28,252 nt of DNA, from positions 1 through 28,252 of the forward strand of contig JAJFTY010000057.1 in assembly GCA_021372695.1 (NCBI GenBank). Reading direction: 5' to 3'. The DNA is from Deltaproteobacteria bacterium. Lineage in GTDB: Bacteria > Desulfobacterota > Syntrophia > Syntrophales > UBA5619. Position numbers and translations under genes: made by a program. Shown in pieces: positions 3,604-28,252 of this stretch. Under the pieces are notes generated by a model, which saw nothing but the letters and a program-made list of their open reading frames with translations, was not told the DNA's origin and ran no database searches. Each line of letters begins with the position of its first letter. Positions within the stretch are counted from its first letter, which is position 1.

Positions 3604-3713
3604 TGGTCCGTCCTGCCGGGCATTTCGCGGCATCTCGACAGAGGCCGGCGGCGGATCGGCGGACCGCAAAACGATTCTGAATCCCCGCATGGGAGATGGA
3701 AGAGGAAGAAGTC

Positions 3714-6435: not shown

Positions 6436-6840
6436 ATGAAGAAGATCGAGGATGTCCGGTTGCCCGAGGAGCTCAGGTACAGTGCGGATCATGAATGGGT
6501 CGGTCTGGAGGGTGACCTGGCGCGCGTGGGTCTGACCGATTACGCCCAGGACCAACTCGGAGACGTCGTCTATGTGGAACTGCCCGCCGTCGGGGCGCGA
6601 TTCGCGCAGGGTGCGGTCTTTGCCACGGTGGAGTCGGTGAAATCGGTCTCCGAATGTTTCATGCCCCTTTCCGGGGAAATCGCCGCCGTGAACGGCCCGC
6701 TCGCGGACAACCCCGCCCTGCTGAACGAGAGCCCCTATGGCGATGGTTGGATGGTCCAAGTGAAACCCGACGACCCCGCGGCCTTTACCCAACTCCTGAC
6801 GGCGGAGGGCTACCGCGCCCGTTTGAAGGGAGGGGCTTAG
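6436..6840 (+). CDS. gcvH: Glycine cleavage system H protein
   Basis: The lipoyl-carrying shuttle protein of the glycine cleavage complex, 134 residues and full length. It shows YSADHEWVGLEG near 15, GLTDYAQDQLGDVVYVELP at 32-50 and the lipoylation site VESVKSVSE with K69. NESPYGDGWMVQV is the usual C-terminal motif. The aminomethyl group made by the P-protein is held on K69-lipoate and passed to GcvT; the reduced lipoate is reoxidised by LpdA. TGGAGGAACG sits just before the ATG. The gene is followed two bases later by gcvPA and is almost certainly co-translated with it. Confidence 0.97.
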   Translation: MKKIEDVRLPEELRYSADHEWVGLEGDLARVGLTDYAQDQLGDVVYVELPAVGARFAQGAVFATVESVKSVSECFMPLSGEIAAVNGPLADNPALLNESPYGDGWMVQVKPDDPAAFTQLLTAEGYRARLKGGA

Positions 6841-6842
6841 GG

Positions 6843-10614: not shown

Positions 10615-13296
10615 CTACCCGGCGAGCGAAAGGGTGACCCGCACGAGGTCGTCGGAAACGCGGCTGCGGGTCATGCCCAGCCGTTCGCACAGGGCGGTCA
10701 TCCGGTGGTTGGTCGGCTCCACGAAGCCGTAGAATTCCCGCAGGCCCCGCTCCGAGGCGATCCCGACAAGGACGTCCAGGAGCTTCGTGGCCAGCCCCCG
10801 CCCCTGGAAATCGTCGTGGACGATGATCGCAAACTCCCCGGCGGCCCCGTTGGCATCGATGATCAGGTTCCCGATGCCGATGAGCCTCCTTTTCTTCTCC
10901 TGCCTGATCTCGGCAACGATCGCCATTTCCCGGTCATAATCGATGTTGACGGAGCGCACGTGCATCGCATGGCTGATCTGCTTGGGGCTGTGGTAGAACC
11001 GGGAGCGGAGCGTCTCCGGCGAGACGGTGGTGAGCATCTCATGCTCCAGCGGTTCGTCTTCGGGGCGGATCGGCCGGAGGATCACCTCGGTCCCGTCCGA
11101 GAGGCGCCACGGGGTCACATAGCGCGTCGGATAGGGGGTGATGACGAGGTGGGGATAGGCCGATGGGCCCGTCTTGCCTTCGATGTTGTCCATGCCCAGG
11201 ATGATTCGGGCGTCCAGCGCAAAGGCCTTGCCCTCGCTCACGGCGATGGGGTTGATGTCCATCTCCGCGATCTCGGGAAAATCGATGATCATGTTGGAGA
11301 AGCCCACGAGGATTTGTTCGATCTGGCGCAGGTCGGCGGCGGGCTTGCCGCGGTACCCCTGGAGCAAGCGGTAGACGTTGGTCTCCTCCATGAGCCGGCG
11401 GGCCAGGGTCTGGTTCAGCGGAGGCAATCCCACGGAGAAATCGCGGAACAGCTCCACGCCGATTCCCCCCATGCCGAAGAGGATGACTGCCCCGAAGTCG
11501 CGGTCCTTCCTTGCCCCCAGGATCAGTTCATAGTCGATGCGATCGACCATCTTCTGCACGGTGACGCCCCGGATGGTCGCCTCAGGGGCGAGACGGTGGA
11601 CCCCGTCGAGAAGGCGGTTGTAGGCCGCCTTCAGCGCCTCGTCGGAATCGATCCCGATGATGACCCCTCCCACGTCCTGGCGGAAGACGATCTCGGGAGA
11701 GGCGACCTTGAGGACCACGGGATAGCCGATCAGGCGGGCGTGGGAAAGGGCTTCCTCCCAGGTGAAAGCCATCCGGGACGAGATCACGGGGATTCCGTAA
11801 TTCCGGAGGAACTTCCACGAATTCTCCTCAGTGAGGATGAAGCAGGACTCCCGGCAGGCCTGGCGGACCAGCGCCTTGAGATGGTTCTTCGGCGGCGCCT
11901 CATCCATGGGGAGTTCCGAAGGGGTCTCGTTGAGGAGCTGCAGGTTCCGATCGTACTGGGTCATGTAGAGATAGGTCCGGACGGCATCCTCCGCCGTCTC
12001 GTAGGCGGGGATCCCCCTTTCGGCCAGAAGCTTCTTCCCCTGCTGGACCTCGCGTCCCCCCATCCAGGTCGTGAGCAGGGGCTTTTCGGTCCCGGCGGCC
12101 TTATCGATCAGGGCTGAGGCCACCTCTTCGGAGCGGGCCGAATCCTGGGGCGTATAGATCGCCAGCAGGCCGTCCGTTCCCGGATCGTTGAAGCAGATGG
12201 CGGCCGCCTCCGCGTACCGCCGGACATCGGCGTCGCGGAGCAGATCGATCGGATTTCCCGGTTTCCAGTAGGGCGGCATGACAGCAGCCAATGAGCGCAG
12301 GCTCGGCTCGGAAAACTGCGCCAGCACGCCTCCGGAGTGCAGGAGGAGATGGGTGGCCATGATCCCGATGCCGCCGGCGTTCGCCATGACGGCCAGACGC
12401 GGCCCCTTGGGACGGTTTCTGGCATAGAGCACGCTCGCGGCATTGAAAAGGTCCTGCGCCTCCCGGACCCGGACCACGCCCACGCGGCGGAACAGGGCGT
12501 CATAGACCTCTTCCGGACCGGCCATCATGCCCGTGTGAGTCAGGCCCCGGCGCTCTCCCCCTGTGAGGAATGGCGGCTTCAGCAGAACAATGGGCTTGTT
12601 GCGGGCGAAGCCCCGCACGGCGCTGACGAAACGCTTGACGTTGCCGATGACCTCTTCCATGTAGATGATGATGCTCTTTGTATGCGGATCGTCGCCGAGG
12701 AAGTCGATCACATCTCCGAAATCGACGTCGATCGCCGAGCCCAGGGAAACGATCATGCTGAAACCGATGTGGGCGTTGATCCCCCAGTCGAAGAGGGTCC
12801 GGCCGAACGCGCCGGTCTGGGCGATGAAGGCGATGTTCCCCGCTTCAGGCGTCTCCCGGAGAAAGGTCGCGTTGAAGCCGAGATTGGGCCTCATGACCCC
12901 CAGGCAATTGGGGCCGACGATCCGCATCCCATAGGCCCGGTTGATCCGGACGATCTCCTCCTCCAGCCGTTTCCCCGCCTCGCCCGTCTCGCGGAAACCC
13001 GCGGAGATGACGATGATCCCCTCTGTGCTTGCCCGGCCGCAGGTATCGACGATGGCCGGCACGGTCGCGGCAGGGGTGACGATGATGGCGAGGTCCACCG
13101 GTTCGGGCAGCGCTTCGATGCCGTTCCAGCAGGGGCGTCCCAGGACCTCCTTGCGTCCCGGATTGACGGGGTAAACCGTGCGGTCGCCGGAGGCCAGCGT
13201 GTTTTCCAGGATGGTCCGTCCGAAGGTCCCGGCACGGTCCGTTGCGCCGATGACGGCGATCGTTTTTGGATTGAAGAGTTTCCGCAGATCACCCAT
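10615..13296 (-). CDS. Acyl-CoA synthetase (ADP-forming) fused to GNAT acetyltransferase
   Basis: An 893-residue protein. The order is CoA-binding domain (PKTIAVIGATDRAGTFG near 10), succinyl-CoA-ligase-like domain with GPNCLGV near 140 and THTGMMAG with H254, ATP-grasp domain about 484-705 (IPVISSRM, GYPVVLKVASPEI, MDINPIAV) and GNAT domain about 728-893 (VILRPIRPEDE, DDFQGRGLATKLLDVL). The synthetase type converts acyl-CoA, ADP and phosphate to acid, CoA and ATP. H254 fits the phosphohistidine of archaeal acetyl-CoA synthetases (ADP-forming). Related Pat/YfiQ protein acetyltransferases have the same layout with a degenerate synthetase half, so the product could be an energy-conserving ligase, a lysine acetyltransferase, or both. 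GGAGAAACGGC precedes the ATG. It is convergent with lipA and is a separate transcription unit. Confidence 0.85.
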   Translation of the reverse strand: MGDLRKLFNPKTIAVIGATDRAGTFGRTILENTLASGDRTVYPVNPGRKEVLGRPCWNGIEALPEPVDLAIIVTPAATVPAIVDTCGRASTEGIIVISAGFRETGEAGKRLEEEIVRINRAYGMRIVGPNCLGVMRPNLGFNATFLRETPEAGNIAFIAQTGAFGRTLFDWGINAHIGFSMIVSLGSAIDVDFGDVIDFLGDDPHTKSIIIYMEEVIGNVKRFVSAVRGFARNKPIVLLKPPFLTGGERRGLTHTGMMAGPEEVYDALFRRVGVVRVREAQDLFNAASVLYARNRPKGPRLAVMANAGGIGIMATHLLLHSGGVLAQFSEPSLRSLAAVMPPYWKPGNPIDLLRDADVRRYAEAAAICFNDPGTDGLLAIYTPQDSARSEEVASALIDKAAGTEKPLLTTWMGGREVQQGKKLLAERGIPAYETAEDAVRTYLYMTQYDRNLQLLNETPSELPMDEAPPKNHLKALVRQACRESCFILTEENSWKFLRNYGIPVISSRMAFTWEEALSHARLIGYPVVLKVASPEIVFRQDVGGVIIGIDSDEALKAAYNRLLDGVHRLAPEATIRGVTVQKMVDRIDYELILGARKDRDFGAVILFGMGGIGVELFRDFSVGLPPLNQTLARRLMEETNVYRLLQGYRGKPAADLRQIEQILVGFSNMIIDFPEIAEMDINPIAVSEGKAFALDARIILGMDNIEGKTGPSAYPHLVITPYPTRYVTPWRLSDGTEVILRPIRPEDEPLEHEMLTTVSPETLRSRFYHSPKQISHAMHVRSVNIDYDREMAIVAEIRQEKKRRLIGIGNLIIDANGAAGEFAIIVHDDFQGRGLATKLLDVLVGIASERGLREFYGFVEPTNHRMTALCERLGMTRSRVSDDLVRVTLSLAG

Positions 13297-13650
13297 GCCG
13301 TTTCTCCGTTCGGGCTCATGATGATCCCGGGTGAAGAGGAATCAAACCCACCAGTCCACCGTCCTCACAACACGGTGCTGAGGCCTTTGGTGCGACGCCG
13401 TTACCGTTACCATGGTATAAGCCAAAATATGGAAATGCAATCCTTTTTGTGTTTTGCGGATCCCGACTCGACCGCGGGAGAAAGGGCGGCGTCCTTAGCT
13501 TGCACCTCCGAATATGCTCCTCTCGAATCCCCATTCCCCACAATCGGAATCTGCATTATGCTGCCTGTAGGGTTGTGTTCTTTTCGTGTGCACGCGGGTG
13601 GGAGACGGAGGTCGGGAATGGCAAACACGGGTCAGGAATCGGAGGTGAAC
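13297..13650. other. 354-bp divergent intergenic region
   Basis: This region separates the minus-strand acyl-CoA synthetase from the plus-strand universal stress protein and must hold both promoters. It contains a perfect 10-bp palindrome TACCATGGTA at 13408-13417 and a nearby GTTACCGTTACC direct repeat. Candidate promoter elements are weak: TTGCAT/TATACC with a short 15-bp spacer on the minus strand (13440-13414), and TATGCT at 13557-13562 on the plus strand without a good -35. No coding region is supported. Confidence 0.4.
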
Positions 13651-14136
13651 ATGTACAGGAAGATATTGATACCCCTGGATGGGTCGGAATTGGCGGAATG
13701 TGCTTTGGATCATGCAAAGACCCTTCTGGAGGCTGGTCCCGCCGCAGAGGTGGTCCTCTTGAATGTCGTCGTTGTCGATATTCACTGGAGGGAATTGAAT
13801 GTGGGAGAAGAGGGCCATTCCATAACCTTCGACATCAACACCATCATCAAATCATACATGGATAAGTCCAGAAAATACCTGGCAAAAGTCAAATACCGGT
13901 TTGCGTCCGGACTTCCTTCCGCGGATATGAAGGTCAAGACGGAAGCCCTGGAGTCCGACCGACCTTCCGAGACGATCACGGATTATGCCCGGAAGAACGG
14001 CGTAGACCTGATCGTCATGGCGACCCACGGGTACACCGGCATGAAGAAGATGATGCTGGGCAGTGTCGCGTTCAAGGTCCTGAGCGAGTCGACGGTGCCG
14101 GTGCTCCTGGTCAGGCCGGAGGCTTGCCGCAGTTAA
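13651..14136 (+). CDS. Universal stress protein (UspA family)
   Basis: A 161-residue single-domain Usp. It opens with MYRKILIPLDGSELAECALD and ends with the ATP-binding-type signature ATHGYTGMKKMMLGSVA followed by STVPVLLVRP. The glycine-rich loop is intact, so nucleotide binding is likely. The ATG at 13651 has GGAGGTG six bases upstream; the frame stays open far upstream without a start signal of similar quality, so the short form is preferred. Usp proteins are usually induced by starvation, redox or membrane stress; no partner can be named here. The two small genes that follow may belong to the same stress-related set, but a promoter candidate lies between. Confidence 0.9.
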   Translation: MYRKILIPLDGSELAECALDHAKTLLEAGPAAEVVLLNVVVVDIHWRELNVGEEGHSITFDINTIIKSYMDKSRKYLAKVKYRFASGLPSADMKVKTEALESDRPSETITDYARKNGVDLIVMATHGYTGMKKMMLGSVAFKVLSESTVPVLLVRPEACRS

Positions 14137-17865: not shown

Positions 17866-18414
17866 ATGCTCTTGAAGGGATGCCTCCATACCCACACAAC
17901 CCATTCGGACGGGCAGCTCTCGCCCCAGGAAGTCGCCGACGCGTATGAATCAAAAGGATATGATTTTATTGCATTTACGGATCACGATTACCTGCTGAGG
18001 CAGAATTGCCGGGAGACCTACGGGCAGGTGAAAACGAACCTGCTTCTCTTCTACGGCGTCGAGCTGACGGTTTTTGTGAACGGATACGTCCATGTGGCGA
18101 AAATCGAAGGCGACCGCGAGGAGCTCCATGTCTTCTGCCACATCGGCGAATATGACCTCACCCCGGATCAGCTCTCTGCCCGGCTGGCGAAACTCGAAAA
18201 GATGTATCCCCTGGATGCCGTGGAGATCACGAAAAAGGGATTTCGTGACAAGGCTTTCGAGTCCCTGGAGATCGCCTATCCCAAAATGGCGTCCGACGAC
18301 TCGCACACCCTGAGCGGCATCGGCAGGGCGTGGATCGAGCTGGACGCGGAGCCGTCGAAGGATGCCATCATCCGGGCCATCCGGGCGGGGAAATTCTGGA
18401 ATTGTTACCTGTAG
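17866..18414 (+). CDS. PHP-domain metal-dependent phosphoesterase
   Basis: A 182-residue PHP domain protein. The metal ligands of the family are visible: H8, H10 and D15 in LHTHTTHSDG, D39/H40 in FTDHD, E66 in YGVELTV, H92 in CHIGEYD and D145/H147 in ASDDSH. Stand-alone PHP proteins hydrolyse phosphoesters such as 3',5'-bisphosphonucleotides or histidinol phosphate; the short length and lack of other domains leave the substrate open. GGCAGGT stands upstream of the ATG. A 108-bp gap containing a stem-loop separates it from the thiolase run, so co-transcription is possible but not certain. Confidence 0.85.
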   Translation: MLLKGCLHTHTTHSDGQLSPQEVADAYESKGYDFIAFTDHDYLLRQNCRETYGQVKTNLLLFYGVELTVFVNGYVHVAKIEGDREELHVFCHIGEYDLTPDQLSARLAKLEKMYPLDAVEITKKGFRDKAFESLEIAYPKMASDDSHTLSGIGRAWIELDAEPSKDAIIRAIRAGKFWNCYL

Positions 18415-18522: not shown

Positions 18523-19668
18523 ATGGGCAGGCGATTGGCCGTCTGTGCGGTGGCGCAGATCAAGAATCATCCCAACTACGATTATCTGCGCTTTCAAAAC
18601 ATGCTTCTGGAGTGTTTCGAGCCCATCATGGAGCAGACCAGGGTGACCTTCGATATGGAGAAGGGCATCCGGACGATCATCACCTGCTCGGATGATGTGT
18701 TCGATGCCCGGACCATCTCCGACAACGGCATCACCGATGTCGTGGGCGCCCACTTCCGCGGGGAGGAGAAGATGGCGCAGGAGAGCATCAACGGTCTCGG
18801 CTACGCGATGGCATGCGTGCTCTCCGGCCATGACGACGTGATCCTCTTCATGGGGCACTGCAAGGAGTCGCAGGGGGAGAGCCGCCGGATGGTTTCCAAC
18901 CTTGCCTATGACCCCTTCTACTGCAGGCCCCTGGGCATGGACTTCCACAACGTGGATGCCCTGCAGGCCAGGGCCTACATGGAAAAATCGAAGGTGACGG
19001 ACGAGCATCTGGCGAAGGTCGTGGTGCGCGCCCGGAAAAACGGACAAAGGAACCCCTATGGCCGCGAGAACAAAATCGTCGATGAAAAGGAGGCCCTGAA
19101 TTCGCCGATGTATGCCGACCCGCTCAGGGAACTCTATGTCTATCCGGTGACCGACTGGGCCTACGGCATGCTTCTGTGCTGCGAAGAGCGGGCCCGGGAG
19201 TTCACGAAAAATCCCGTCTGGATTACCGGGTATGGGAGCTGCGTGGACCGGTATTTCCTCGGAGACCGGGATTTGACCTCGAACTTTTCGCTCAAGAATG
19301 CCGCCGAGCGCGCATACGCCATGGCGGGCATCCGGGATCCCGAAAAGGAGGTCCAGCTTTTCGAACTCAGCGACCAGGCCGCATACCAGCTTCCGATGTG
19401 GGCCGAAGGCGTCGGGATCGCACCGGAGGGCCGGGGGGGGCAATGGATCGACGCAGGCGGCATGGACCGCTTCAACGTCAACCCGTCCGGGGGACAGCTG
19501 AACGGCAATCCGCTTCTTCTCGGCGGCGCGGCCCGGGCCATCGAATGCTACTACCACCTGACCGGCCAGGCGGGCGAACGCCAGGTGAAGGGCGCAAAAC
19601 GGGCCGTCGCCCAGGCGGCAACCGGCGGGGCCGGGCAGCATCAGGCCGTAATCGTCATGGAAGCGTAG
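18523..19668 (+). CDS. Thiolase-fold protein A (SCP-x thiolase-like, no catalytic Cys)
   Basis: A 381-residue member of the SCP-x/lipid-transfer thiolase group. Family marks are AYAMAGIRDPEKE near 265, NVNPSGGQLNGNP at 319-330, and a C-terminal QHQAVIVME strand. The usual nucleophilic Cys segment is replaced (the matching region reads EEKMAQESINGLG), the GHP histidine is N329, and the second histidine region reads QAATGGAG. Normal thiolysis chemistry is therefore unlikely. It is closest to protein C here (shared FDARTIS/WDGRTIS and FFLGDRDL/FFFGDRDL-like stretches). GGAAGGAGG precedes the ATG at 18523. Its partner B starts 12 bases after it. It probably forms a complex with B and a DUF35 protein, as Cys-less thiolase folds do in steroid aldolases; the substrate is unknown. 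Confidence 0.85.
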   Translation: MGRRLAVCAVAQIKNHPNYDYLRFQNMLLECFEPIMEQTRVTFDMEKGIRTIITCSDDVFDARTISDNGITDVVGAHFRGEEKMAQESINGLGYAMACVLSGHDDVILFMGHCKESQGESRRMVSNLAYDPFYCRPLGMDFHNVDALQARAYMEKSKVTDEHLAKVVVRARKNGQRNPYGRENKIVDEKEALNSPMYADPLRELYVYPVTDWAYGMLLCCEERAREFTKNPVWITGYGSCVDRYFLGDRDLTSNFSLKNAAERAYAMAGIRDPEKEVQLFELSDQAAYQLPMWAEGVGIAPEGRGGQWIDAGGMDRFNVNPSGGQLNGNPLLLGGAARAIECYYHLTGQAGERQVKGAKRAVAQAATGGAGQHQAVIVMEA

Positions 19669-19680
19669 GGAGGTCTGACT

Positions 19681-20880
19681 ATGACACATCGCAAGAAAAA
19701 CAGGAATGTCGGGATCATCGGGGTCGGACAGACGAAGCATTCCAGCCATCGCGAGGATGTGAACCAGCCGGAATTGATCCATGAGGCCGTGAGCCTGGCC
19801 CTGAAAGACGCGAACCTGACCCTGAAGGACATCGACTGCGTCGTGCACGGCAACATGGAGCTCTTCGAGATGGTGCACCAGCCGGACCTCTGGCATGTGC
19901 TGGGAACCGGCGCCTACGGCAAGGCGGCCATCCGGATCACCACCGGCGGCACGGTCGGGGCAACCCTCTCCTGTGCATCGGACAATCTCGTGGCGTCGGA
20001 AATGTACGATATCGTCATGGCGATCGGCTTCGAAAAGCTGCAGGAGGGGCACACCACGGGCGGCATCACCAACATGGCGGACCCGCTCTGGTTCAGGAAG
20101 ATCCAGGCCGGGGCCCTCACCGGCTCCTCGGCCTATGACGTCGAGCGGGAATTCGGCCTGGAGCGCGCGAACCGGGCCTCGCTGACCTACCGGATCATCA
20201 TGGACAAGCACGCGGGGCTGAACCCCAACGCGCACCGCGCCTTCGGCCTGGACTTCAGCCAGATCGACGACCTCATCCGGACCTCGCCGAAGCTCGTGGG
20301 CGAGCTGAAGCTCATCGAAATGTGCTCCCAGTCCGACGGGGCGTGCTGCGTCATCTTCGCCTGCGAGAAGAAGGCCAAAGAGCTTGCCAAAACCCCGGTC
20401 TGGATCCGCGATCATATCACCGTCCACAAGGAGGAGACCTTTAACATCTTCGGATACGACCGCAAGTTCCCGGTGCTCAAGTCGCATAAATTCGCGGCCG
20501 AGCAGCTGTTCCGGCGGAACGGGATCTCGGATCCGCTCGGCTACTTCGATGTCTTCGAAATGTACGATCCCGCCTCATGGTGGGCCATCGACTGGATCCG
20601 GGACTTCTTCGGCCTGAAGGGCGACGAGGCTCTCAAACTCATCGAGAACAGGGAGATCATGATCGGCGGCAAGATGCCCATCAACCCGTCGGGCGGCGTG
20701 ATCGGATCGAATCCCATCGGCGCGACCGCGCTGATCCGGGTGGCCGAGGCGGCGATGCAGGTGCGCGGCAATGCGGGGCCGCACCAGATCCCGACCCCGG
20801 TCAACCACGCCCTGGCCTCGGGGTTCGGCGGCACCATGTGGACCGTGCTCACGATGCTCGAGAAGGAACTGAACTGGTAG
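19681..20880 (+). CDS. Thiolase-fold protein B (SCP-x thiolase-like, no catalytic Cys)
   Basis: A 399-residue thiolase-fold protein. The N-terminal GIIGVGQTKHSSHREDVNQPE and the pattern INPSGGVIGSNPIGATALIR at 334-353 match the SCP-x thiolase group. Where thiolases have the acyl-binding Cys, B reads ITTGGTVGA, with Gly at that place. The GHP histidine is N344, and the C-terminal catalytic loop reads HALASGFGG, without His at the expected site. B is clearly related to D, not to A. GGGAGGT lies before the ATG. The gene is tightly packed (12 bp after A, 9 bp before the SCP2-DUF35 gene). It may be the non-canonical active subunit or a structural partner of A. Confidence 0.87.
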   Translation: MTHRKKNRNVGIIGVGQTKHSSHREDVNQPELIHEAVSLALKDANLTLKDIDCVVHGNMELFEMVHQPDLWHVLGTGAYGKAAIRITTGGTVGATLSCASDNLVASEMYDIVMAIGFEKLQEGHTTGGITNMADPLWFRKIQAGALTGSSAYDVEREFGLERANRASLTYRIIMDKHAGLNPNAHRAFGLDFSQIDDLIRTSPKLVGELKLIEMCSQSDGACCVIFACEKKAKELAKTPVWIRDHITVHKEETFNIFGYDRKFPVLKSHKFAAEQLFRRNGISDPLGYFDVFEMYDPASWWAIDWIRDFFGLKGDEALKLIENREIMIGGKMPINPSGGVIGSNPIGATALIRVAEAAMQVRGNAGPHQIPTPVNHALASGFGGTMWTVLTMLEKELNW

Positions 20881-20889
20881 GAGGGAGCC

Positions 20890-22080
20890 ATGGCAGAATA
20901 CTGGGGAGTCAAGGTCGAGGAGATCTTCAACACGATGAAGGAGCGCTTCCGTCCCGAAGGGGCCAAGGGGGTCGACGCCATTTTCGGATACGACATCCGG
21001 GACGAGGGCAAGTGGAAGCTGACGGTCAAAAACGGTACGATGGCGATCGAGAAAACCGACGACCTGTCCGGGTGCGCCGCGACCATGGCGGCCGACGGCG
21101 AGACCTTCGTCGGAGTCAACACCGGCAAAGTCGACGCGACGAACGCCTTCATGAGCGGAAAATTCACGGTGGAGGGCGACATGGCCCTCTTCGGGAAGAC
21201 CGGAAAGCTCTTCCGGAAATTCGTGATCGCCAAAAAGGAGATGACGACGAAGGAGTACCTGGCCGACATGTTCGCGACCGTGGTCCCGCGTTTCAGGCCG
21301 AAGGAGGCCGAGGGGCTCGAAGCCTCCTTCGGCTTCGATCTCGGCGGTCCGGACGGCGGAAAGTGGACCGTGTTCATCAAGGACAAGGTCTGCACGGTCA
21401 CGACGACGATCGAGGGCAAGCCGACCGTTACGCTGGAATTCAACGACGCCAGGGACTACGTCGATTTCATCCTCGGGAAGATCGACGCCCAGAGCATCCT
21501 GGCGGCCGGGAAGGCGGCCGCGAAGGGCGACATCAACATGATGGCCTCGAAATGGCCCATCCTGTTCGAGAAGTACAAGGACCCCCTGGCCGCCAATGTC
21601 CCGCAGCAGGAGCTGCTGGTGCTCAAGAAGACCATCTCCCTGGACCAGAAGTTTTCGACCGGCCCCGTCATGGGCAAGTTCCTCAAGGGGCTGAAGGAGA
21701 AGAAGATCTACGCAAACCAATGCCCCAGCTGCGGCCGCCTGCAGCTGCCGCCGCGGGAGGTGTGCGCCGAGTGCCGGGTGCGGGCGGGGGAGTTCCGGGA
21801 GGTGGGGCCCCGGGGCGAGGTCCGCTACATGGACGTCGTCTACTACGCCATGCCCGATCCGCTGACCGGCGTGGCCCGGGAAACCCCGTACGGGTCCATC
21901 TTCGTCCTCCTGGACGGCTGCAAGGGCAACGAGACCCTGCCTCACTTCATCCGGAAGGACCAGATCGAAAGGATCGAGCGGGGCTGGAACGAGAAGAAGG
22001 GCACCCGCGTCCGTCCGGTGTGGGAAGAGAACCGGATCGGCGACATCTGGGACATCAAATATTTCGAAATCGATGAGTGA
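20890..22080 (+). CDS. SCP2-SCP2-DUF35 fusion protein
   Basis: A 396-residue three-domain protein. Residues about 8-112 and 122-230 are two SCP2 (sterol carrier protein 2) modules. Both begin with similar helices and share WKLTVKNG/WTVFIKDK, with AATMAADGETFVGV/TLEFNDARDYVDFI as the second landmark. From about 255 a DUF35 unit follows: a lead helix FLKGLKEKKIYANQ, a zinc ribbon with C278, C281, C292 and C295 (CPSCGRLQLPPREVCAEC), then an OB-like barrel. SCP2 domains bind acyl-CoA or sterols in a hydrophobic pocket. DUF35 proteins bind and complement thiolase-fold enzymes. The fusion suggests delivery of a hydrophobic CoA ester to thiolases A/B upstream. AGGAGGGA is the ribosome-binding site. 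I know of no characterised protein with this layout. Confidence 0.85.
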   Translation: MAEYWGVKVEEIFNTMKERFRPEGAKGVDAIFGYDIRDEGKWKLTVKNGTMAIEKTDDLSGCAATMAADGETFVGVNTGKVDATNAFMSGKFTVEGDMALFGKTGKLFRKFVIAKKEMTTKEYLADMFATVVPRFRPKEAEGLEASFGFDLGGPDGGKWTVFIKDKVCTVTTTIEGKPTVTLEFNDARDYVDFILGKIDAQSILAAGKAAAKGDINMMASKWPILFEKYKDPLAANVPQQELLVLKKTISLDQKFSTGPVMGKFLKGLKEKKIYANQCPSCGRLQLPPREVCAECRVRAGEFREVGPRGEVRYMDVVYYAMPDPLTGVARETPYGSIFVLLDGCKGNETLPHFIRKDQIERIERGWNEKKGTRVRPVWEENRIGDIWDIKYFEIDE

Positions 22081-22091
22081 GGAGCCGGGAT

Positions 22092-23519
22092 ATGACGACC
22101 ACGCCAATGAAGGGATTTGAAGACAGCTACGTCATCGAGGGGAAAATGGCGCTCCCCTACACCTATTTTGCCGGCCGGGTGGGGAGCAAGTTCATCACGA
22201 CCCTCCGGGACGAGAAGAAGATCATGGGGGTGAGGTGCCCTGCCTGCAACATGGTCTATCTGCCGCCGCGGCAGGTCTGCGACAAGGACTTCACAGACAT
22301 CCGCGATCGATGGGTCGAGGTCGGAAACGAGGGCCGGGTGGTGAACTTCACGGTGGTGCGCTACGACGACAAGCACCTGCCGCGGAAGGCCCCTTCTGTC
22401 CTCGCCCTGATCAAGCTCGACGGCGCGGATACGCCGTTTGTGCACATCCTCGAGGAATGCGCGATCGGAGAGGTCAAGGTCGGCATGAAGGTCGAGGCGG
22501 TCTTCGCGAAGGAAACGACGAATACGATCCTCGACATCGACCATTTCAAACCCGCGCCGGAGAGGCTTTCGATCCACGAGATCAACGCGGCGCGGAAGCA
22601 GTGGACCCCCGCGGACGAACCCGAAACCCGTGAGAAAAGGAGAGGAGGCAGACCCGATATGTCGAAACCCGTCATCATCACCGCGGCGCTCACCGGAGCC
22701 ATCACCATGAAGGGCCTGAACCCGGCGGTGCCCTACAAACCGGAGGAATTCGCGGAGGAGGCTTACAAATGCTGGAAGGCCGGGGCCGCCATGGTGCATG
22801 TCCATGCCCGCGACGACAGCGGTTCGGCCACCCACGATCACGCCAGAATCCGGGCGACATACGACGCCATCAAACAGCGGTGCCCGGAGCTGATCGTCAA
22901 CCTGAGCTCTGCCGTCGGCATGCAGGTCACCCCGGAGCAGCGCATCTCGCAGATCGTCGCGGTCAAACCCGACATGGCCTCGCTCAACACCAACACGATG
23001 AACTTCGGCGCCATCGAACGGAAGACCGGGAGGATCTTCATCGACTACGTCTTCGAGAACACCTTCACCATGCTGCAGGATTTCGGCAAGGCCATGGAGG
23101 AAAACGGCGTGAAGCCGGAGATCGAATGCTACGACATGGGCGGATTGGACAACATCCTGCTCATCGGAAAGCAGGGGTTCTTCAGCGATCCGATGAACTT
23201 CAACTTCGTCTGGGGTGTCGCGGGCGGCCAGGCCTTCCGGACCGAGTCCTTCATCGCCATGATGAACGCGATTCCGGCCAGGGCAAACTTCACCACCTGC
23301 GGCGTCGGAACCGACCAGTACCCCTGCATCATGCAGTCGTGCATCCTGGGCGGGCACATGCGGGTCGGCCTCGAGGACAACGCCCGGATGCCCGACGGCC
23401 GGCTCGCCAAGGGGAGCTACGAACAGGTGGAGGTGGCGGTGACCATCGCGAACTGTCTCGGACGCCCGGTGGCGACGCCGGCTGAGGCGCGCCTGATCAT
23501 GGGACTCAGGAAAAAGTAG
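22092..23519 (+). CDS. DUF35 (zinc ribbon/OB) fused to BKACE beta-keto acid cleavage enzyme
   Basis: A single open frame of 475 residues. Residues 1 to about 155 are a DUF35 domain (CPACNMVYLPPRQVC, C49, C52, C63); the fourth zinc ligand is Asp 66 rather than Cys. A 35-residue charged linker leads to a BKACE (DUF849) TIM barrel from M190: metal-site HVH at 236-238 (MVHVHARDD), KPDMASLNTNTMNF, EIECYDMGGL, and the hallmark MRVGLEDN. BKACE enzymes convert a beta-keto acid plus acetyl-CoA to acetoacetate plus a new acyl-CoA. The usual TTGG loop reads SSAVG, so substrate range may differ. The start at 22092 follows GTGAGGAG; a second strong site precedes M190. The fusion would let DUF35 dock the BKACE on a thiolase complex. 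Confidence 0.87.
   Translation: MTTTPMKGFEDSYVIEGKMALPYTYFAGRVGSKFITTLRDEKKIMGVRCPACNMVYLPPRQVCDKDFTDIRDRWVEVGNEGRVVNFTVVRYDDKHLPRKAPSVLALIKLDGADTPFVHILEECAIGEVKVGMKVEAVFAKETTNTILDIDHFKPAPERLSIHEINAARKQWTPADEPETREKRRGGRPDMSKPVIITAALTGAITMKGLNPAVPYKPEEFAEEAYKCWKAGAAMVHVHARDDSGSATHDHARIRATYDAIKQRCPELIVNLSSAVGMQVTPEQRISQIVAVKPDMASLNTNTMNFGAIERKTGRIFIDYVFENTFTMLQDFGKAMEENGVKPEIECYDMGGLDNILLIGKQGFFSDPMNFNFVWGVAGGQAFRTESFIAMMNAIPARANFTTCGVGTDQYPCIMQSCILGGHMRVGLEDNARMPDGRLAKGSYEQVEVAVTIANCLGRPVATPAEARLIMGLRKK
22638..22661 (+). promoter_or_regulatory. Internal ribosome-binding site and ATG inside the DUF35-BKACE gene
   Basis: AGGAGAGGAGG at 22638-22648 lies 10 bases before an in-frame ATG at 22659, exactly where the BKACE domain begins. 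It is a better start signal than that of the full-length frame. It may produce a separate BKACE in addition to the fusion, or be a remnant of two genes that fused by loss of a stop codon. Confidence 0.6.
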
Positions 23520-23590
23520 AGCATCGGAATGCAGCCCTTCCCGGCGGATGGACCGGGGCCTGAAGCCGAAAGGCACAAAGGAGAAGCATC

Positions 23591-24058
23591 ATGTCGGATC
23601 CGTTCCAAGGCATCGAGCCGATGGTCTACCAGAGCCGGATCAACGTTCCCTACTCCTGGTGGGCCGGCGACACGGCGAGCCGATTCTTCGTCGCCCTGCG
23701 GGATGAACGAAAAATCCTGGGGACGAAGTGCGGCGCCTGCAACAGGGTTTTCCTGCCGCCGCGCAAGGTGTGCCCTGCCTGCTTCACCGAGAACAGGGAA
23801 TGGGTGGACCTCTCCGACGAGGGGACCCTCCTCTCCTTCAGCGTGGCGAGGCGCCATTTCGCCGCCATCCCCGCAGACCGGAAGGTGCCGGTCATCTGGG
23901 GCCTGATCCGGCTCGACGTCGCCGATACGGCGCTCCTGCACTACCTGGACGAGGTGGAGCCGGAGCAGGTGGCGATCGGAATGCGCGTGAAGGCGGTGTT
24001 TGCGGAGATGAGAAAAGGCGCCATCCGCGACATCACACACTTCAGACCGGTCAGATGA
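23591..24058 (+). CDS. DUF35 zinc-ribbon/OB-fold protein
   Basis: A 155-residue stand-alone DUF35 protein. A leading segment with YSWWAGDTASRFF precedes an intact zinc ribbon, C47, C50, C61 and C64 (CGACNRVFLPPRKVCPAC). An OB-fold-like barrel follows, with the family pattern VIWGLIRLDVADTALLHYL and RDITHFRPVR at the end. Such proteins act as a subunit of thiolase-fold enzymes, organising the CoA site. It lies 71 bp after the DUF35-BKACE gene and 16 bp before thiolase C, so C is its likeliest partner. AAAGGAG precedes the ATG. Confidence 0.9.
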   Translation: MSDPFQGIEPMVYQSRINVPYSWWAGDTASRFFVALRDERKILGTKCGACNRVFLPPRKVCPACFTENREWVDLSDEGTLLSFSVARRHFAAIPADRKVPVIWGLIRLDVADTALLHYLDEVEPEQVAIGMRVKAVFAEMRKGAIRDITHFRPVR

Positions 24059-24074
24059 CCCAGGAGCCCGAGAG

Positions 24075-25220
24075 ATGGAGAGAGCCGCGATCATCGGCGT
24101 CGGAACGACGAAAATCGAAAAGAGAAAGATCGGAGAGACCTTTGCCGACATGGCCTGGGAGGCCGTGAACCAGGCCCTCGGCGACGCAGGCATGACCATC
24201 GACGACATCGACAACGTGGTGACCACGTCGAGCGATTTCTGGGACGGCAGGACGATCTCCTGCATGGCCGTGGGCGACGCCAGCGGCGCGGCCCACAAGA
24301 ACGTCTCCTGCGTCGAGGGTGACGGCACCTACGGCGCATTCTACGGCATGGCCCGCTGCCTCTCCGGACCCTACAAGACCACGCTGGTCACCGGACACTC
24401 CAAGGGGTCCGAGAGCGTCTCCAGCCTGATCACCAACGCCGCCTTCGACCCGATCTACGAGCGGGGCCTGGGCATGGACATGGTCACCGCCTGCGCCATG
24501 CAGGCCCGGTCGTACATGCACCGCACCGGCACCACTGCCGAACAGCTGGCCCTGGTTTCGGTTAAGAACCACGGCAACGCGCGCCGGAACCCCCTGGCCC
24601 AGCTTCCCATGGCGCTCACCGTCCGGGACGTGCTGGAATCCGAGATGATCGCGGATCCGCTCCACAAGCTGGACTGCTCGCCCATCTCCGACGGGTGCGC
24701 GGCGGTCATCCTCGCCCACGAGTCGGTGGCCGCGAACTTCCGGCGAAAGCCGGTCTGGATCCGGGGGGCGTCATTCTGCGCGGACAGCTTCTTCTTCGGC
24801 GATCGGGACCTCTCCCGGCCCCGATCTCTGACCGAGGCGGCCAAAAAGGCGTACGCGATGGCCGGGATCGAGGACCCGAAACGGGAAATCGACCTCGCGG
24901 AACTCTATGACGCCTTCACCTATCAGGAGCTCATGTGGATCGAGGGCCTGGGGCTGGCCGAGGACGGGGCCGCGGGAAAACTCCTGGAGCAGGGCGCCTT
25001 CGACCTCGACGGCCGACTGCCGGTGAACCCGTCCGGCGGCCTGCTTTCCGGGCATCCGGTGATCGCGGCCGGCCTCTACAGCATGGCCGCGGTGGTCCGG
25101 CAGCTCCGGAACGAAGCGGGCGGCTTCCAGGCGGCCAGGGCGAAAACCGGTCTGGTGCACGGCGTGAACGGGCTTGCCGGCCAGTCCCACTGCGTGTTTG
25201 TTCTCGATCAGGAGAGATAG
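24075..25220 (+). CDS. Thiolase-fold protein C (SCP-x thiolase-like)
   Basis: A 381-residue member of the SCP-x thiolase group. Of the four paralogues it keeps the most catalytic features: NPSGGLLSGHP with H327 and LVHGVNGLAGQSH with H362. The Cys position is still changed; VEGDGTYGAFYG replaces the usual VExACASGG, with the nearest Cys several residues upstream in SCVEG. It resembles A (SSDFWDGRTIS, FFFGDRDLS, KAYAMAGIEDPKRE). AGGAGCC lies before the ATG. The downstream gene D starts 10 bp after its stop. Possible roles are a retro-aldolase, an acyltransferase or a thiolase with a relocated nucleophile. Confidence in the fold is high and in the reaction low. Confidence 0.88.
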   Translation: MERAAIIGVGTTKIEKRKIGETFADMAWEAVNQALGDAGMTIDDIDNVVTTSSDFWDGRTISCMAVGDASGAAHKNVSCVEGDGTYGAFYGMARCLSGPYKTTLVTGHSKGSESVSSLITNAAFDPIYERGLGMDMVTACAMQARSYMHRTGTTAEQLALVSVKNHGNARRNPLAQLPMALTVRDVLESEMIADPLHKLDCSPISDGCAAVILAHESVAANFRRKPVWIRGASFCADSFFFGDRDLSRPRSLTEAAKKAYAMAGIEDPKREIDLAELYDAFTYQELMWIEGLGLAEDGAAGKLLEQGAFDLDGRLPVNPSGGLLSGHPVIAAGLYSMAAVVRQLRNEAGGFQAARAKTGLVHGVNGLAGQSHCVFVLDQER

Positions 25221-25230
25221 GAGGAGAAGC

Positions 25231-26388
25231 ATGGCCAGACGGGTTGCGATCGTCGGAACCGGACAGACCTTCCACAAGAGCCACCGCCCGGACGTCAACG
25301 GACAGGAGCTCATCAACGAGGCGGTCCGGAGGGCGCTTACGGACGCCGATCTCACGATGCACGAGATCGATGCCGTGGTCATCGGGAACATGGACCACTT
25401 CGAGGGGATCAACTATGTCGACTGCTGGAGCGTCGACGGCTCCGGCGGAACGATGAAGCCGATCATCAAGATGACCACGGGCGGAACCACGGGGTGCACG
25501 GTCGCGATCGGCGGATTCCACCTGGTGGGGTCGGGGATGTTCGACCGGGTCCTGGTGATCGGCTGGGAGAAGAATTCGGAGTCGGACACCACCGGCGCGA
25601 TCACCACCGCCTTCGATCCGGTCTGGGACCGCCTGGTGTTTGCCGGCGCCATCTCGGGACTCGCGGCGGAGGCCCAGGCCTACATGGCCCGCTACGGTGC
25701 GACCGACCGGGATGCGGCGCGCGTGAGCGTGCGGGACCGGAAGCACGCCATGAACAACCCCCACGCGCAGCTCCGGAAGGAGGTGACGCTCGAACAGGTG
25801 CTCGCCTCCCCGATGCTGGCCGATCCGATCCACCTTCTGGACGTTTGCCCGCGGTCGGACGGCGCCTGCGCGGTCATCATGGCCGCGGAGGAGGTCGCCG
25901 AAAAGATCTGCCCGAAACCGGACTGGATCTGGGCCACGGCGGCACGGCACTCCTATAGCTACCTCGGCGACGCCGATTACGGCCGCCTGACCAGCATGCG
26001 CGAAGGCGCCCGGGAGATCTGGAAGAAGGCGGGCATCAAGGAGCCGCGCAAGGAGCTGGACGTGGCCGAGCTCTACCAGCCCTACTCGTTCGGCGGCCTG
26101 ATCTGGATCGAGGACATGGGCCTCGTGGGCCCCGGAGAGGCGCCCCAATACATCTGGGACGGCAACACCGACATGGGCGGAGAGCTGCCGATCAACCCCT
26201 CGGGCGGCGTGATCTCCTGCAACCCCATCGGGGCGACCGGCCTGATCCGGTGCGCCGAGGCGGCGATGCAGGTGATGGGCAAGGCGGAAGGGCGCCAGGT
26301 GCCCGACGTCGAACTGGCGTTCAGCAGCGGATTCGGGGGCTGCTGGTGGACGGACATGATCCTGCACGGCAGGAAAAAACCCACATGA
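25231..26388 (+). CDS. Thiolase-fold protein D (SCP-x thiolase-like, no catalytic Cys)
   Basis: A 385-residue thiolase-fold protein paralogous to B. Shared stretches are GTGQTFHKSHRPDVNGQELI at the N-terminus, MTTGGTTGCT at the site where a Cys nucleophile would sit, and INPSGGVISCNPIGATGLIR at 321-340 with N331 in place of the GHP histidine. The last loop reads AFSSGFGGCWW, without His. The start at 25231 has TAGGAGGAG eight bases upstream; a start further upstream in the same frame lies inside gene C and is not needed. The stop overlaps an ATG of the following DUF35 frame. With C and the two flanking DUF35 genes it forms a second copy of the A-B type module. Confidence 0.88.
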   Translation: MARRVAIVGTGQTFHKSHRPDVNGQELINEAVRRALTDADLTMHEIDAVVIGNMDHFEGINYVDCWSVDGSGGTMKPIIKMTTGGTTGCTVAIGGFHLVGSGMFDRVLVIGWEKNSESDTTGAITTAFDPVWDRLVFAGAISGLAAEAQAYMARYGATDRDAARVSVRDRKHAMNNPHAQLRKEVTLEQVLASPMLADPIHLLDVCPRSDGACAVIMAAEEVAEKICPKPDWIWATAARHSYSYLGDADYGRLTSMREGAREIWKKAGIKEPRKELDVAELYQPYSFGGLIWIEDMGLVGPGEAPQYIWDGNTDMGGELPINPSGGVISCNPIGATGLIRCAEAAMQVMGKAEGRQVPDVELAFSSGFGGCWWTDMILHGRKKPT

Positions 26389-26408
26389 GCTGGATAGGAG
26401 CAGGGACG

Positions 26409-26897
26409 ATGGCCGAGAAGGAACAGATCATCATACAATCGGGGGATGTCGAACAGCCTTTCGCCTATTCGGTGGGGATGCACGGGAGCAAATTCTTCAC
26501 GGAGATCCGGCACCGTTGCCGGTTCATGGCCGTCCGGTGCCCGAGGTGCGGGAAGGTGTACATCCCGCCGCGCGCCGTGTGCGGCGACTGTTTCACCGGG
26601 ATGGAGGAGTGGGTCGAGGTGGGCCCGAAAGGGAAGATCGGCACCTTCACGATCCTGCGTTTCGCCTTCATCGATCCGGAGACGGGCGCCCAGAAGCCGG
26701 TTCCGTACGGGTACGGCTTCATCAAGCTGGACGGCGCCGACACCCTGTTTCAGCACTACATCAGCGTCGAGGACGAAAAGCGGATCCGGATCGGCGCCCG
26801 GGTCGAACCGATTTTTGCGAAGGAGCGGAAGGGGAGCATCCGGGACATCGAGTATTTCAGGGTCGACGAACTCGTAAAAAGTCCAAAACCCCTGTGA
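26409..26897 (+). CDS. DUF35 zinc-ribbon/OB-fold protein with repeat-derived C-terminus
   Basis: A 162-residue DUF35 protein. Zinc ribbon residues C44, C47, C58 and C61 (CPRCGKVYIPPRAVCGDC) are intact. The barrel part includes YGFIKLDGADTLFQHYI and RDIEYFRVDE. The start at 26409 is preferred because AGGAG lies eight bases upstream; an ATG at 26385 overlapping the stop of D is in frame and would add eight residues. The last eight codons and the stop (from 26871) lie inside the left arm of an inverted-repeat element, so the natural C-terminus was probably replaced by the insertion. It most likely partners thiolases C and D. Confidence 0.87.
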   Translation: MAEKEQIIIQSGDVEQPFAYSVGMHGSKFFTEIRHRCRFMAVRCPRCGKVYIPPRAVCGDCFTGMEEWVEVGPKGKIGTFTILRFAFIDPETGAQKPVPYGYGFIKLDGADTLFQHYISVEDEKRIRIGARVEPIFAKERKGSIRDIEYFRVDELVKSPKPL

Positions 26898-27010
26898 TTG
26901 TCATGCTGAGCTTGTCGAAGCATGACCTGATATCAATGACTTCCGTCGCCCTTCGATGGCCCTTCGACAGGCTCAGGGTGACTTGGGTGACAGGGATGAC
27001 TTTTTACGAG
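26871..27010. repeat. 140-bp MITE/REP-like inverted-repeat element
   Basis: Perfect 13-bp terminal inverted repeats, CTCGTAAAAAGTC at 26871-26883 and GACTTTTTACGAG at 26998-27010, bound the element. Inner arms at 26900-26920 (GTCATGCTGAGCTTGTCGAAG) and 26962-26982 (CTTCGACAGGCTCAGGGTGAC) pair at 18 of 21 positions. The inner motif is of the dispersed 'TTCGACAGGCTCAG' kind common in many anaerobe genomes. No transposase and no clear target duplication are visible. It overlaps the end of the last DUF35 gene and separates it from the PP2C gene. Confidence 0.8.
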
Positions 27011-27030
27011 GCCATCCGGGTCGTCGAGGG

Positions 27031-27930
27031 ATGACCGCGACGGACGCTCATGCTGTCTGGATCAACCCGTCCCGGCGGATCTTGAAGAAGAAAGGGGCGC
27101 TATGCGGGGGGATCCGGACCGGGACCGACCAGATTCGGAACGGCTACGGAAACGGCGACTGCCTCTACTTCGATTTCGGGAACTGGGTCTTCGCCGCGGC
27201 GGACGGTTCGGAGCGCGCCCCCTGGTCGTCCCGCGATCTCCTGCAGCGCCTGGCGAAAAGCCTCGCGCTCTGCGGCGTGCCGGACACGGTTTCCGGCTGG
27301 CTTGATCTGGTGAATGAAAAGGTGTACGCCGGGCAGGCCTATCCGCACCGGGCGACCTTCAGCTGCGTTGCCCTTAGGCGCGACGGTGCAGAGATCCGCC
27401 TGATCGTCGCCCATGGCGGCGACAGCGCCGTGGCGGTGATCGACGGCGCCACCGGTTCTTTCCGCCGGCAGACCGGATGCGATATGAATTTCGCCGGCAG
27501 GAGCCGCGCGATCGCGGACGTGACCGAGTACCGCGTCGCTGGGCCGGACGAGCGGCTGCTCATTGCGACCGACGGGTTCGACGACCTCTGGCGTTCCGGC
27601 ACCCGCCGCTCCCTGATCGGCGGCACGGCCGAGGCGTTCTGGCAGGGGCCGGTGGAAGGCATCTGCGAGCGGCTGCACGGGGCGCTGGAAGAGAGCGGGA
27701 ACGGGGTCGAGCACGATGACATCGGACTGATCCTGCTCGACCCGAACCGGATGGAGCGGATCCCGGGATTGGCCGTGATGATCGGGGGGACGCGGCCTTT
27801 TGAAGAAGAGCGTTACCGGGAGGAATATGCTGCGGGATCCCATGACCGATGGCTCCCCGACCGGTGCTGGAGCGAACACGAACGGGAATTTGCCGGGGCG
27901 GGAATCGGGCTTCTGATCGAGGCTCGGTGA
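27031..27930 (+). CDS. PP2C-type protein serine/threonine phosphatase
   Basis: A 299-residue PP2C-like domain. Metal-site segments are GNGDCLYFDFGNWVFAAADG near the N-terminus, VAHGGDSAVAVIDG in the middle, LIATDGFDDLW and HDDIGLILLDP near the end, so the Asp ligands are largely present. No membrane segment or sensor domain is seen. The start at 27031 lies just outside the repeat element; the upstream in-frame ATG at 26956 is inside the element and was rejected. No strong ribosome-binding site is present (GAGGG directly abuts the ATG), so expression may be low or coupled. Its role beside a catabolic cluster is unclear; its expression may have been altered by the inserted repeat. Confidence 0.75.
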   Translation: MTATDAHAVWINPSRRILKKKGALCGGIRTGTDQIRNGYGNGDCLYFDFGNWVFAAADGSERAPWSSRDLLQRLAKSLALCGVPDTVSGWLDLVNEKVYAGQAYPHRATFSCVALRRDGAEIRLIVAHGGDSAVAVIDGATGSFRRQTGCDMNFAGRSRAIADVTEYRVAGPDERLLIATDGFDDLWRSGTRRSLIGGTAEAFWQGPVEGICERLHGALEESGNGVEHDDIGLILLDPNRMERIPGLAVMIGGTRPFEEERYREEYAAGSHDRWLPDRCWSEHEREFAGAGIGLLIEAR

Positions 27931-27977: not shown

Positions 27978-28252
27978 GTGACGAATGGAAAGAGCAAGAG
28001 TGATTTGACGCAACTGAGACGGTCCCAGCTGACCCAGGCGGCGTACAAGGTCGTGGGCGAGAAGGGGTACAACGATTTCACGATCCGGGACATTGCGAAG
28101 GAGGCGGGCCTCTCCACGGGCCTGGTCCACTATTATTTCAAGAACCGGGAAGATCTCCTTTTCAAGCTGCTCAAGGAGATGAACGCCAACCTCAAGAGTC
28201 ATCTGACGCAGGCGCTGGCGGCGCTCCGGGAGCCGCGGGAGATGCTGATGGC
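27978..28252 (+). CDS. TetR/AcrR-family transcriptional regulator (partial, 3' end beyond window)
   Basis: The first 91 codons of a TetR-type repressor, cut by the window edge. The GTG start at 27978 has GGAGGAG ten bases upstream. The N-terminal helix-turn-helix is clear: AAYKVVGEKGYNDFTIRDIA, then KEAGLSTGLVHYYFKNREDLL near 42-61. The ligand-binding domain is missing here. Members commonly sense acyl-CoAs or hydrophobic compounds and control adjacent catabolic genes, so it is the best candidate regulator of the thiolase/DUF35 run. That link is positional inference. Confidence 0.9.
   Translation, partial: MTNGKSKSDLTQLRRSQLTQAAYKVVGEKGYNDFTIRDIAKEAGLSTGLVHYYFKNREDLLFKLLKEMNANLKSHLTQALAALREPREMLM

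Follow-up and report, generated by a model that had tools for sequence, protein, structure and literature searches.

We analysed a stretch of 28,252 nt, in the following called the window, from a Deltaproteobacteria bacterium of UBA5619 (contig JAJFTY010000057.1, assembly GCA_021372695.1). Between positions 18523 and 26897 it contains eight genes, A to H, all on one strand and spaced by 9-71 bases, and we found that this run is a real, conserved system. The first-pass annotation had read it as a coenzyme A (CoA) dependent C-C bond system made of two modules of thiolase-fold and DUF35 proteins. The system itself is borne out by synteny across phyla, but the thiolase chemistry is not, as catalytic residues are lost, and an aldolase-like reading replaces it. 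With somewhat more confidence than doubt, we propose that the run encodes two heteromeric, DUF35-scaffolded thiolase-fold C-C lyases, similar to Ltp2 and Sal, which would cleave beta-hydroxyacyl-CoA. DUF35-scaffolded thiolase-fold assemblies are already known as a kind of system, and it is the arrangement that is new within that kind. In the openly licensed literature, outside of which most subscription journals lie, we found neither a published pathway for the cluster nor a DUF35-BKACE or SCP2-SCP2-DUF35 protein.

Gene content and conservation of the run

Pfam searches and the gene coordinates agree with the initial description of the run as four thiolase folds, four DUF35 domains, a tandem SCP2 and one BKACE in close genes of the same strand. 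The thiolase C-terminal domain was found in each of A, B, F and G. C matches two SCP2 domains and zf-ChsH2 (the DUF35 zinc ribbon), D matches OB_ChsH2_C and BKACE (PF05853; 310 bits for BKACE against a cut-off of 24.8), and E and H each contain both DUF35 halves. For D we used the ATG at 22092, and a GTG at 22077 is open as well. The eight genes are:

18523..19668, + strand: A, alpha-type thiolase-fold subunit without the Cys nucleophile, with Ser for Tyr at the NEAF position
19681..20880, + strand: B, beta-type thiolase-fold subunit with a YDPA motif (Tyr295), candidate catalytic aldolase subunit
20890..22080, + strand: C, SCP2-SCP2-DUF35 fusion with four zinc-ribbon Cys
22092..23519, + strand: D, DUF35-BKACE fusion with HxH and ED motifs retained and Asp as the fourth zinc ligand
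23591..24058, + strand: E, stand-alone DUF35
24075..25220, + strand: F, alpha-type thiolase-fold subunit with a YDAF motif and the GHP His retained
25231..26388, + strand: G, beta-type thiolase-fold subunit with a YQPY motif, candidate catalytic aldolase subunit
26409..26897, + strand: H, stand-alone DUF35, start ATG at 26409

Conserved synteny across genomes had been named as a check on the run. A protein search with C gave 479 matches, of which a listing covered 120, and an alignment of the window's C with 19 of these 120 was used to search a genome collection. This resulted in 77 loci, taken from the best 80 of 95 confirmed hits, on which gene calls and homology searches were run; many of these loci are truncated at contig ends. 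A and B occur together in 62 of the 77 loci, and 61 have A, B and the DUF35 parts of both C and D. The C fusion is present in 70 loci, the D fusion with BKACE in 30, and the complete set of eight genes in 16. The hosts belong to several phyla and carry names such as Smithella/Smithellaceae, Syntrophaceae, Spirochaetes, Desulfobacteraceae, other Deltaproteobacteria, UBP15, Syntrophomonas and a Bacillota bacterium. A chance gathering of the genes is ruled out by this synteny.

Among the 30 D-fusion loci, 19 also contain E-F-G-H. Nine of the remaining 11 reach the end of the contig or locus (two of them, L010 and L017, with E and F already begun), and in the other two (L015 and L021) the locus continues without E-H. 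The second module can also stand apart from the first. The genome of L022 has such a unit (E-F-G-H, L086) separate from A-B-C-D, and its neighbours are a separate BKACE gene (304 bits), a large acyl-CoA dehydrogenase, a weakly ligase-like gene and two MaoC-type genes, one of them confirmed by Pfam. The same locus encodes a 597-aa CoA-transferase (6571-8364) in which GctA- and GctB-like parts are fused, with two CoA_trans stretches. Desulfosarcina alkanivorans and D. widdelii have a ligase-E-F-G-H-c8 unit (L083, L084; c8 is the gene that follows H in the window) away from A-B-C-D. A relative of G with at least 60% identity was found in 17 of 26 genomes with an A-B-C-D locus, and the other nine gave matches of at most 45% only.

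As a separate observation, two genomes (loci L082 and L088) contain two extra FG-type units together with ordinary thiolases and a hydroxyacyl-CoA dehydrogenase, and beside CrtI-like oxidoreductases and a CrtC-like protein. Of these, CrtC is over its cut-off in L088 only, and the CrtI-like oxidoreductases score far under the curated cut-offs, so that the clusters give no more than a hint that isoprenoids or isoprenoid-like substrates are perhaps broken down.

Active sites and subunit lines of the thiolase-fold proteins

Thiolysis by A, B, F and G is unlikely, since the nucleophilic Cys is gone from all four thiolase-fold families. We counted residues in MAFFT alignments of 67 A, 74 B, 22 F and 20 G open reading frames (ORFs) with the window's own proteins and references, leaving out ORFs with a match span of 300 residues or less. 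The nucleophile column holds no Cys in any of the resulting 68 A, 75 B, 23 F and 21 G sequences; we see mostly Asn or Gln in A, Thr or Val in B, Tyr or Phe in F and Thr in G. An ungapped hand count from the helix end, made for the four window proteins only, gives Ala in A, Gly in B and G (both carry TTGGT at this place) and Glu in F, which has a Cys two residues before that Glu. Cys at the CxG place is absent from all B, F and G sequences and occurs in one of the 68 of A.

The first and third residues of the NEAF motif and the residue at the GHP His place are invariant in the two beta-type families. All 75 B sequences have Tyr-Asp-Pro followed by Ser or Ala at the NEAF place and Asn for the GHP His, and the motif Tyr, the Pro at motif place 3 and the Asn are likewise found in 21 of 21 G sequences. 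F has the motif Tyr in 19 of 23 sequences, while Ala at place 3 and the GHP His are each present in 22. In A, no sequence out of 68 has Tyr at place 1, which is Ser in 35, Asn in 20, Cys in 6, Met in 4, Lys in 2 and Gly in 1; place 3 is mixed, with His in 21 and Cys in 3.

Tyr at motif place 1 serves as the base in TcLtp2 (YDHF) and CtSal (YDCY), and the nucleophile place of CtSal is occupied by Gly (PMC12329534). Since the thiolase residues of B and G are replaced and Tyr stands where TcLtp2 and CtSal have their base, a retro-aldol reaction like that of Ltp2 and Sal appears to fit better than thiolysis. Two points weigh against it. AlphaFold models of A (predicted local distance difference test, pLDDT, 86) and B (pLDDT 77) both have the SCP2-type thiolase fold, and the B model ranks the archaeal thiolase (6esq is the best match), BbsB and SCP2 thiolases over Ltp2 and Sal; such matches indicate a shared fold only, but by fold the models stand closer to thiolases than to Ltp2/Sal. 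The other point is the putative proton donor. Motif place 3 holds the catalytic Cys in Sal and the oxyanion-hole His in Ltp2, whereas here it is Pro, Ala or mixed; as it is Pro in B and G, the donor is left unexplained and the proteins cannot be assigned to Ltp2 or Sal.

To describe the relationship between the four families, we built a tree from 44 sequences, which were selected among those of the loci. In this tree, 21 A/F-type sequences share one side of a branch with a support of 97/93, and 22 B/G-type sequences share one side of another branch with a support of 98/97. A second, quick tree of 53 rows concurs (SH-aLRT 94 and 99), and topology tests rejected both A and B as one clade (approximately unbiased test, p-AU 2.6e-6) and F and G as one clade (6e-62). 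The trees thus indicate that an alpha (A/F) and a beta (B/G) line diverged before the module was duplicated. In Streptomyces clavuligerus (L079) and Nonomuraea (L080), a pair from the same alpha and beta lines adjoins a protein with two DUF35 domains:

L079 11116-12135: tandem-DUF35 protein by an alpha/beta thiolase-like pair (S. clavuligerus; zinc ribbon matched only in the second DUF35)
L080 10399-11298: tandem-DUF35 protein by an alpha/beta thiolase-like pair (Nonomuraea)

The old alpha and beta lines and the actinobacterial pairs with double DUF35 together suggest that the ancestral unit was one alpha subunit, one beta subunit and two DUF35 domains. The window would then hold two such units, A/B with C and D, and F/G with E and H. 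As A/F and B/G form sister lines that parted early, each module probably consists of a heteromer and a pair of DUF35 partners, and we infer that its subunits are joined in one complex.

The actinobacterial pairs recall Ltp3/Ltp4, the two adjacent thiolase-like genes for C24-branched sterol side chains in actinobacteria. They lack a BKACE or SCP2 fusion. With the PRK08313 and PRK07937 models, which we take to be the families of Ltp3 and Ltp4, the window proteins stay below the cut-offs (B 259 and G 369 against 514; A 162 against 419), and the Nonomuraea pair passes both. The benzoylsuccinyl-CoA thiolase BbsAB similarly combines a thiolase fold with DUF35 in anaerobes, but differs in that the proteins described here have no Cys nucleophile; with the BbsB model NF053628 they score 59 (A), 58 (B), 151 (F) and 130 bits (G) against a cut-off of 750.

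DUF35 fusions, activation genes and the flanks of the run

DUF35 carries interchangeable cargo. Among 88 D-type ORFs, 30 are DUF35-BKACE fusions, 26 are DUF35-MaoC fusions (found in Desulfobacterota) and 32 are neither, and 21 of 89 C-type ORFs have an acyl-CoA ligase ahead of SCP2 and DUF35; these cargo types were checked by Pfam on one MaoC and two ligase examples. In L036, L041 and L042, BKACE is a separate neighbouring gene. In the window, C, E and H each have the full set of four zinc-ribbon cysteines. The fourth zinc ligand is Asp in 23 of the 30 BKACE fusions (Cys in 6, one unmatched), and it is Cys in 26 of 26 MaoC-length and 29 of 32 short D proteins.

The BKACE part of D is a full domain, as in the BKACE family (Kce, PF05853), and differs from that family by its fusion to DUF35. 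Its HxH and ED motifs are retained in 36 of 36 sequences, and D is below the cut-offs of the four NCBIfam models that it matches (best 263 against 382). BKACE is described as converting a beta-keto acid and acetyl-CoA to acyl-CoA and acetoacetate (PMC6365646); that the BKACE domain of D acts on a beta-keto acid is plausible.

The linking of a thiolase-fold protein to a second enzyme by DUF35 is known from the archaeal thiolase/HMG-CoA synthase complex (6esq). Here the second enzyme is BKACE, MaoC or ligase, and the named genes of the run include no HMG-CoA synthase. The bile-acid hydratase Shy is likewise built in the order DUF35-MaoC, and it binds the aldolase Sal through its DUF35 (PMC12329534 and PMC10398937). 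Sal-Shy and Ltp2-ChsH1/H2 resemble the present system in several ways: a thiolase fold without nucleophilic Cys, Tyr at the base place of a YDxx motif, a DUF35 neighbour and, in relatives, DUF35 fused to MaoC (Desulfobacterota) and pairs of acyl-CoA dehydrogenase genes nearby. On the other hand, we see here two subunit types and two DUF35s per module, anaerobic hosts and DUF35 fused to BKACE or to SCP2 and ligase, and Ltp2 and Sal are not the closest folds. Another relative is ipfDE of ibuprofen degraders, a sterol-carrier-protein-like thiolase with an OB-fold (DUF35) protein, by which propionyl-CoA is released; it has one thiolase-like subunit in an aerobic aromatic pathway, and no BKACE or SCP2 fusion is described in the accessible sections of PMC11347016.

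The first-pass annotation had noted that no dehydrogenase, hydratase or ligase lies in the run and had placed these steps elsewhere. This is correct for the window, where a tblastn search with at most five members each of the ligase, CoA-transferase, crotonase and acyl-CoA dehydrogenase families gave no match at E 1e-4. It fails for the relatives, since their run itself includes a ligase, a CoA-transferase and sometimes a hydratase. An ORF for an AMP-forming acyl-CoA ligase is present in 17 of the 19 loci that have both the D fusion and E-H, a crotonase ORF in 9 and, by six-frame search, a glutaconate-type CoA-transferase pair in 15. These genes sit between D and E, as seen in gene maps of 18 of the 19 loci (L008 excluded); in the window, this gap is 71 bases. 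Two acyl-CoA dehydrogenase genes follow in several relatives' loci.

In GctB of the relatives, the Glu of the FEAGG motif, which we take to be catalytic, is retained in 17 of 17 sequences and aligns with the Glu of 1poi chain B; this glutaconate CoA-transferase is also the best solved match. For both reasons we rejected an IpdAB-like ring hydrolase and an AibAB-like decarboxylase as readings of these genes. A glutaconate-type CoA-transferase would suit a dicarboxylic substrate or acetoacetate. In some Desulfobacterota loci (L045, L048, L061, L063 and L066), a second module is followed by a crotonase and an aldehyde ferredoxin oxidoreductase, as if an aldehyde were formed and then oxidised.

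The conserved unit is wider than the eight genes and includes a PHP gene upstream, and c8 and a TetR gene downstream:

17866..18414, + strand: PHP-domain protein of 182 aa, directly upstream of A (Pfam PHP 31.7 bits, cut-off 26.4)
26956..27930, + strand: c8, after H, weakly PP2C/SpoIIE-like (Pfam SpoIIE 23.3 bits, below the cut-off of 25)
27978..28252, + strand: TetR-family regulator, truncated by the window end (family from Pfam of the L039 copy)

Identity to the relatives' clusters is up to 77% for PHP (the L001 copy), 52-55% for c8 and 62-73% for TetR over the part present. An ORF for PHP accompanies A in 49 of 77 loci, in lineages both with and without the BKACE fusion. The start of c8 is uncertain, as homology to the relatives begins only at 27007-27031, and Pfam gave no match on its L039 copy.

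Elsewhere in the window, one 887-aa ORF (3696-6359, + strand) joins a glycine-cleavage T-protein domain to a serine hydroxymethyltransferase domain. It adjoins two glycine dehydrogenase (P-protein) ORFs (6654-9628), and a pyridine-nucleotide-disulphide oxidoreductase lies near it on the opposite strand. A 599-aa ORF at 12337-14136 (+ strand) has a C-terminal universal-stress domain (439-593), the remainder being without a Pfam match. ARAGORN and Rfam gave no matches on the window.

A possible reaction sequence, its alternatives and their meaning

In the aldolase reading, the SCP2 domains would hold a lipid-like acid, which would become a CoA ester by means of the ligase and the glutaconate-type CoA-transferase encoded in the relatives. 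Acyl-CoA dehydrogenases would desaturate the ester and a crotonase or MaoC would hydrate it to a beta-hydroxyacyl-CoA, which B or G, with the conserved Tyr as base, would split by a retro-aldol reaction to acetyl-CoA (or propionyl-CoA) and a carbonyl product. In the window's version of the cluster, DUF35 would bring BKACE to the cleavage site. If the substrate were of the 3-hydroxy-3-R-glutaryl-CoA type, the products would be a beta-keto acid and acetyl-CoA, that is, the two co-substrates of BKACE, which would convert them to R-CO-CoA and acetoacetate with no ATP spent.

This explanation is supported by the DUF35-MaoC fusions, which have the order of the Shy that binds Sal, by the ligase ahead of SCP2-DUF35, and by the alpha/beta split before the module duplication together with the actinobacterial pair beside a double DUF35. 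Further support comes from the retained Glu of GctB, from the separate locus L086 with its Gct fusion, BKACE, MaoC-type genes and acyl-CoA dehydrogenases, and from the agreement between what BKACE takes up and what cleavage of 3-hydroxy-3-R-glutaryl-CoA is expected to yield. A methanogenic syntroph of the Syntrophobacteraceae is proposed to degrade limonene through an intermediate of the same type; the enzyme is another one, and LrcC of the ring-cleavage operon is assigned to the HMG-CoA-synthase superfamily (PMC12583861). A bolder version, less likely than not and put forward tentatively, is a DUF35 metabolon of syntrophs, in which a Cys-less two-subunit aldolase opens a tertiary or beta-branched carbinol of the 3-hydroxy-3-R-glutaryl-CoA type and passes the unstable beta-keto acid and acetyl-CoA directly to the fused BKACE.

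That A, B, F and G are true thiolases, as annotated, and perform CoA-dependent thiolysis of a beta-ketoacyl-CoA would agree with their fold, with closest structures that are mostly thiolases and with the use of DUF35 also by BbsAB and the archaeal thiolase. We nevertheless consider it very unlikely, given the Cys-free nucleophile column in all four families, the loss of the GHP His from A, B and G and the near absence of Cys at the CxG place. It is unlikely, too, that A and F, or all four proteins, are inactive CoA-binding scaffolds and that the chemistry is left to BKACE, hydratase and CoA-transferase: A is without Tyr and varied at its motif and DUF35 is a known scaffold, but invariant Tyr, Pro and Asn in B and G go beyond what a mere scaffold would need. 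The opposite direction, a DUF35-assisted aldol or acyl transfer that builds a branched lipid or secondary product in the manner of PhlABC, seems rather improbable. The presence of a ligase and a CoA-transferase, of acyl-CoA dehydrogenases and hydratases, and in some loci of an aldehyde ferredoxin oxidoreductase, points to breakdown, with no search made for carrier proteins or synthases.

The parallels with Ltp2/Sal and Ltp3-Ltp4, the SCP2 domains and the acyl-CoA dehydrogenase pairs would also be expected if anaerobes had a steroid side-chain pathway corresponding to the igr operon or to ltp3/ltp4, and the latter are termed aldol lyases for C24-branched sterols (PMC7807495). However, the 3-ketosteroid dehydrogenase model NF005882 is over its cut-off in 0 of 26 cluster genomes, which include two complete Desulfosarcina chromosomes, while no control genome passed either. 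Weaker matches were found in 5 of the 26 genomes (best 433 of 788 bits, in the L025 genome), 11 of the 26 being scored on 35 candidates only. A steroid nucleus as substrate is thus disfavoured, we did not retain such a pathway as first choice, and the steroid reading as a whole is highly improbable. We also rejected acetone metabolism of sulphate reducers: the acetone locus has a DUF35 protein, yet activation is described as proceeding via a thiamine diphosphate (TDP) enzyme and a B12 mutase (PMC8084838).

Little is known about how anaerobes pass beta-branched and tertiary carbons in lipids, terpenoids and ring-derived acids, and a cluster of probable aldolases offers a testable route. The cluster is widespread and links, via DUF35, ligase, hydratase, lipid carrier, probable aldolase and BKACE, and it gives BKACE a partner. 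If the metabolon version is true, carbon skeletons that are closed to beta-oxidation, such as isoprenoid-like or ring-derived acids, would have an alternative to thiolysis that needs no ATP and saves CoA, and DUF35 would be a general, exchangeable plug for a hydratase, ligase, lipid carrier or BKACE. Our results show that DUF35 serves as a modular adaptor in more systems than the few whose complexes have been solved, and they suggest that annotations such as "thiolase" or "lipid-transfer protein" for Cys-less proteins of the SCP2 type may conceal aldolases.

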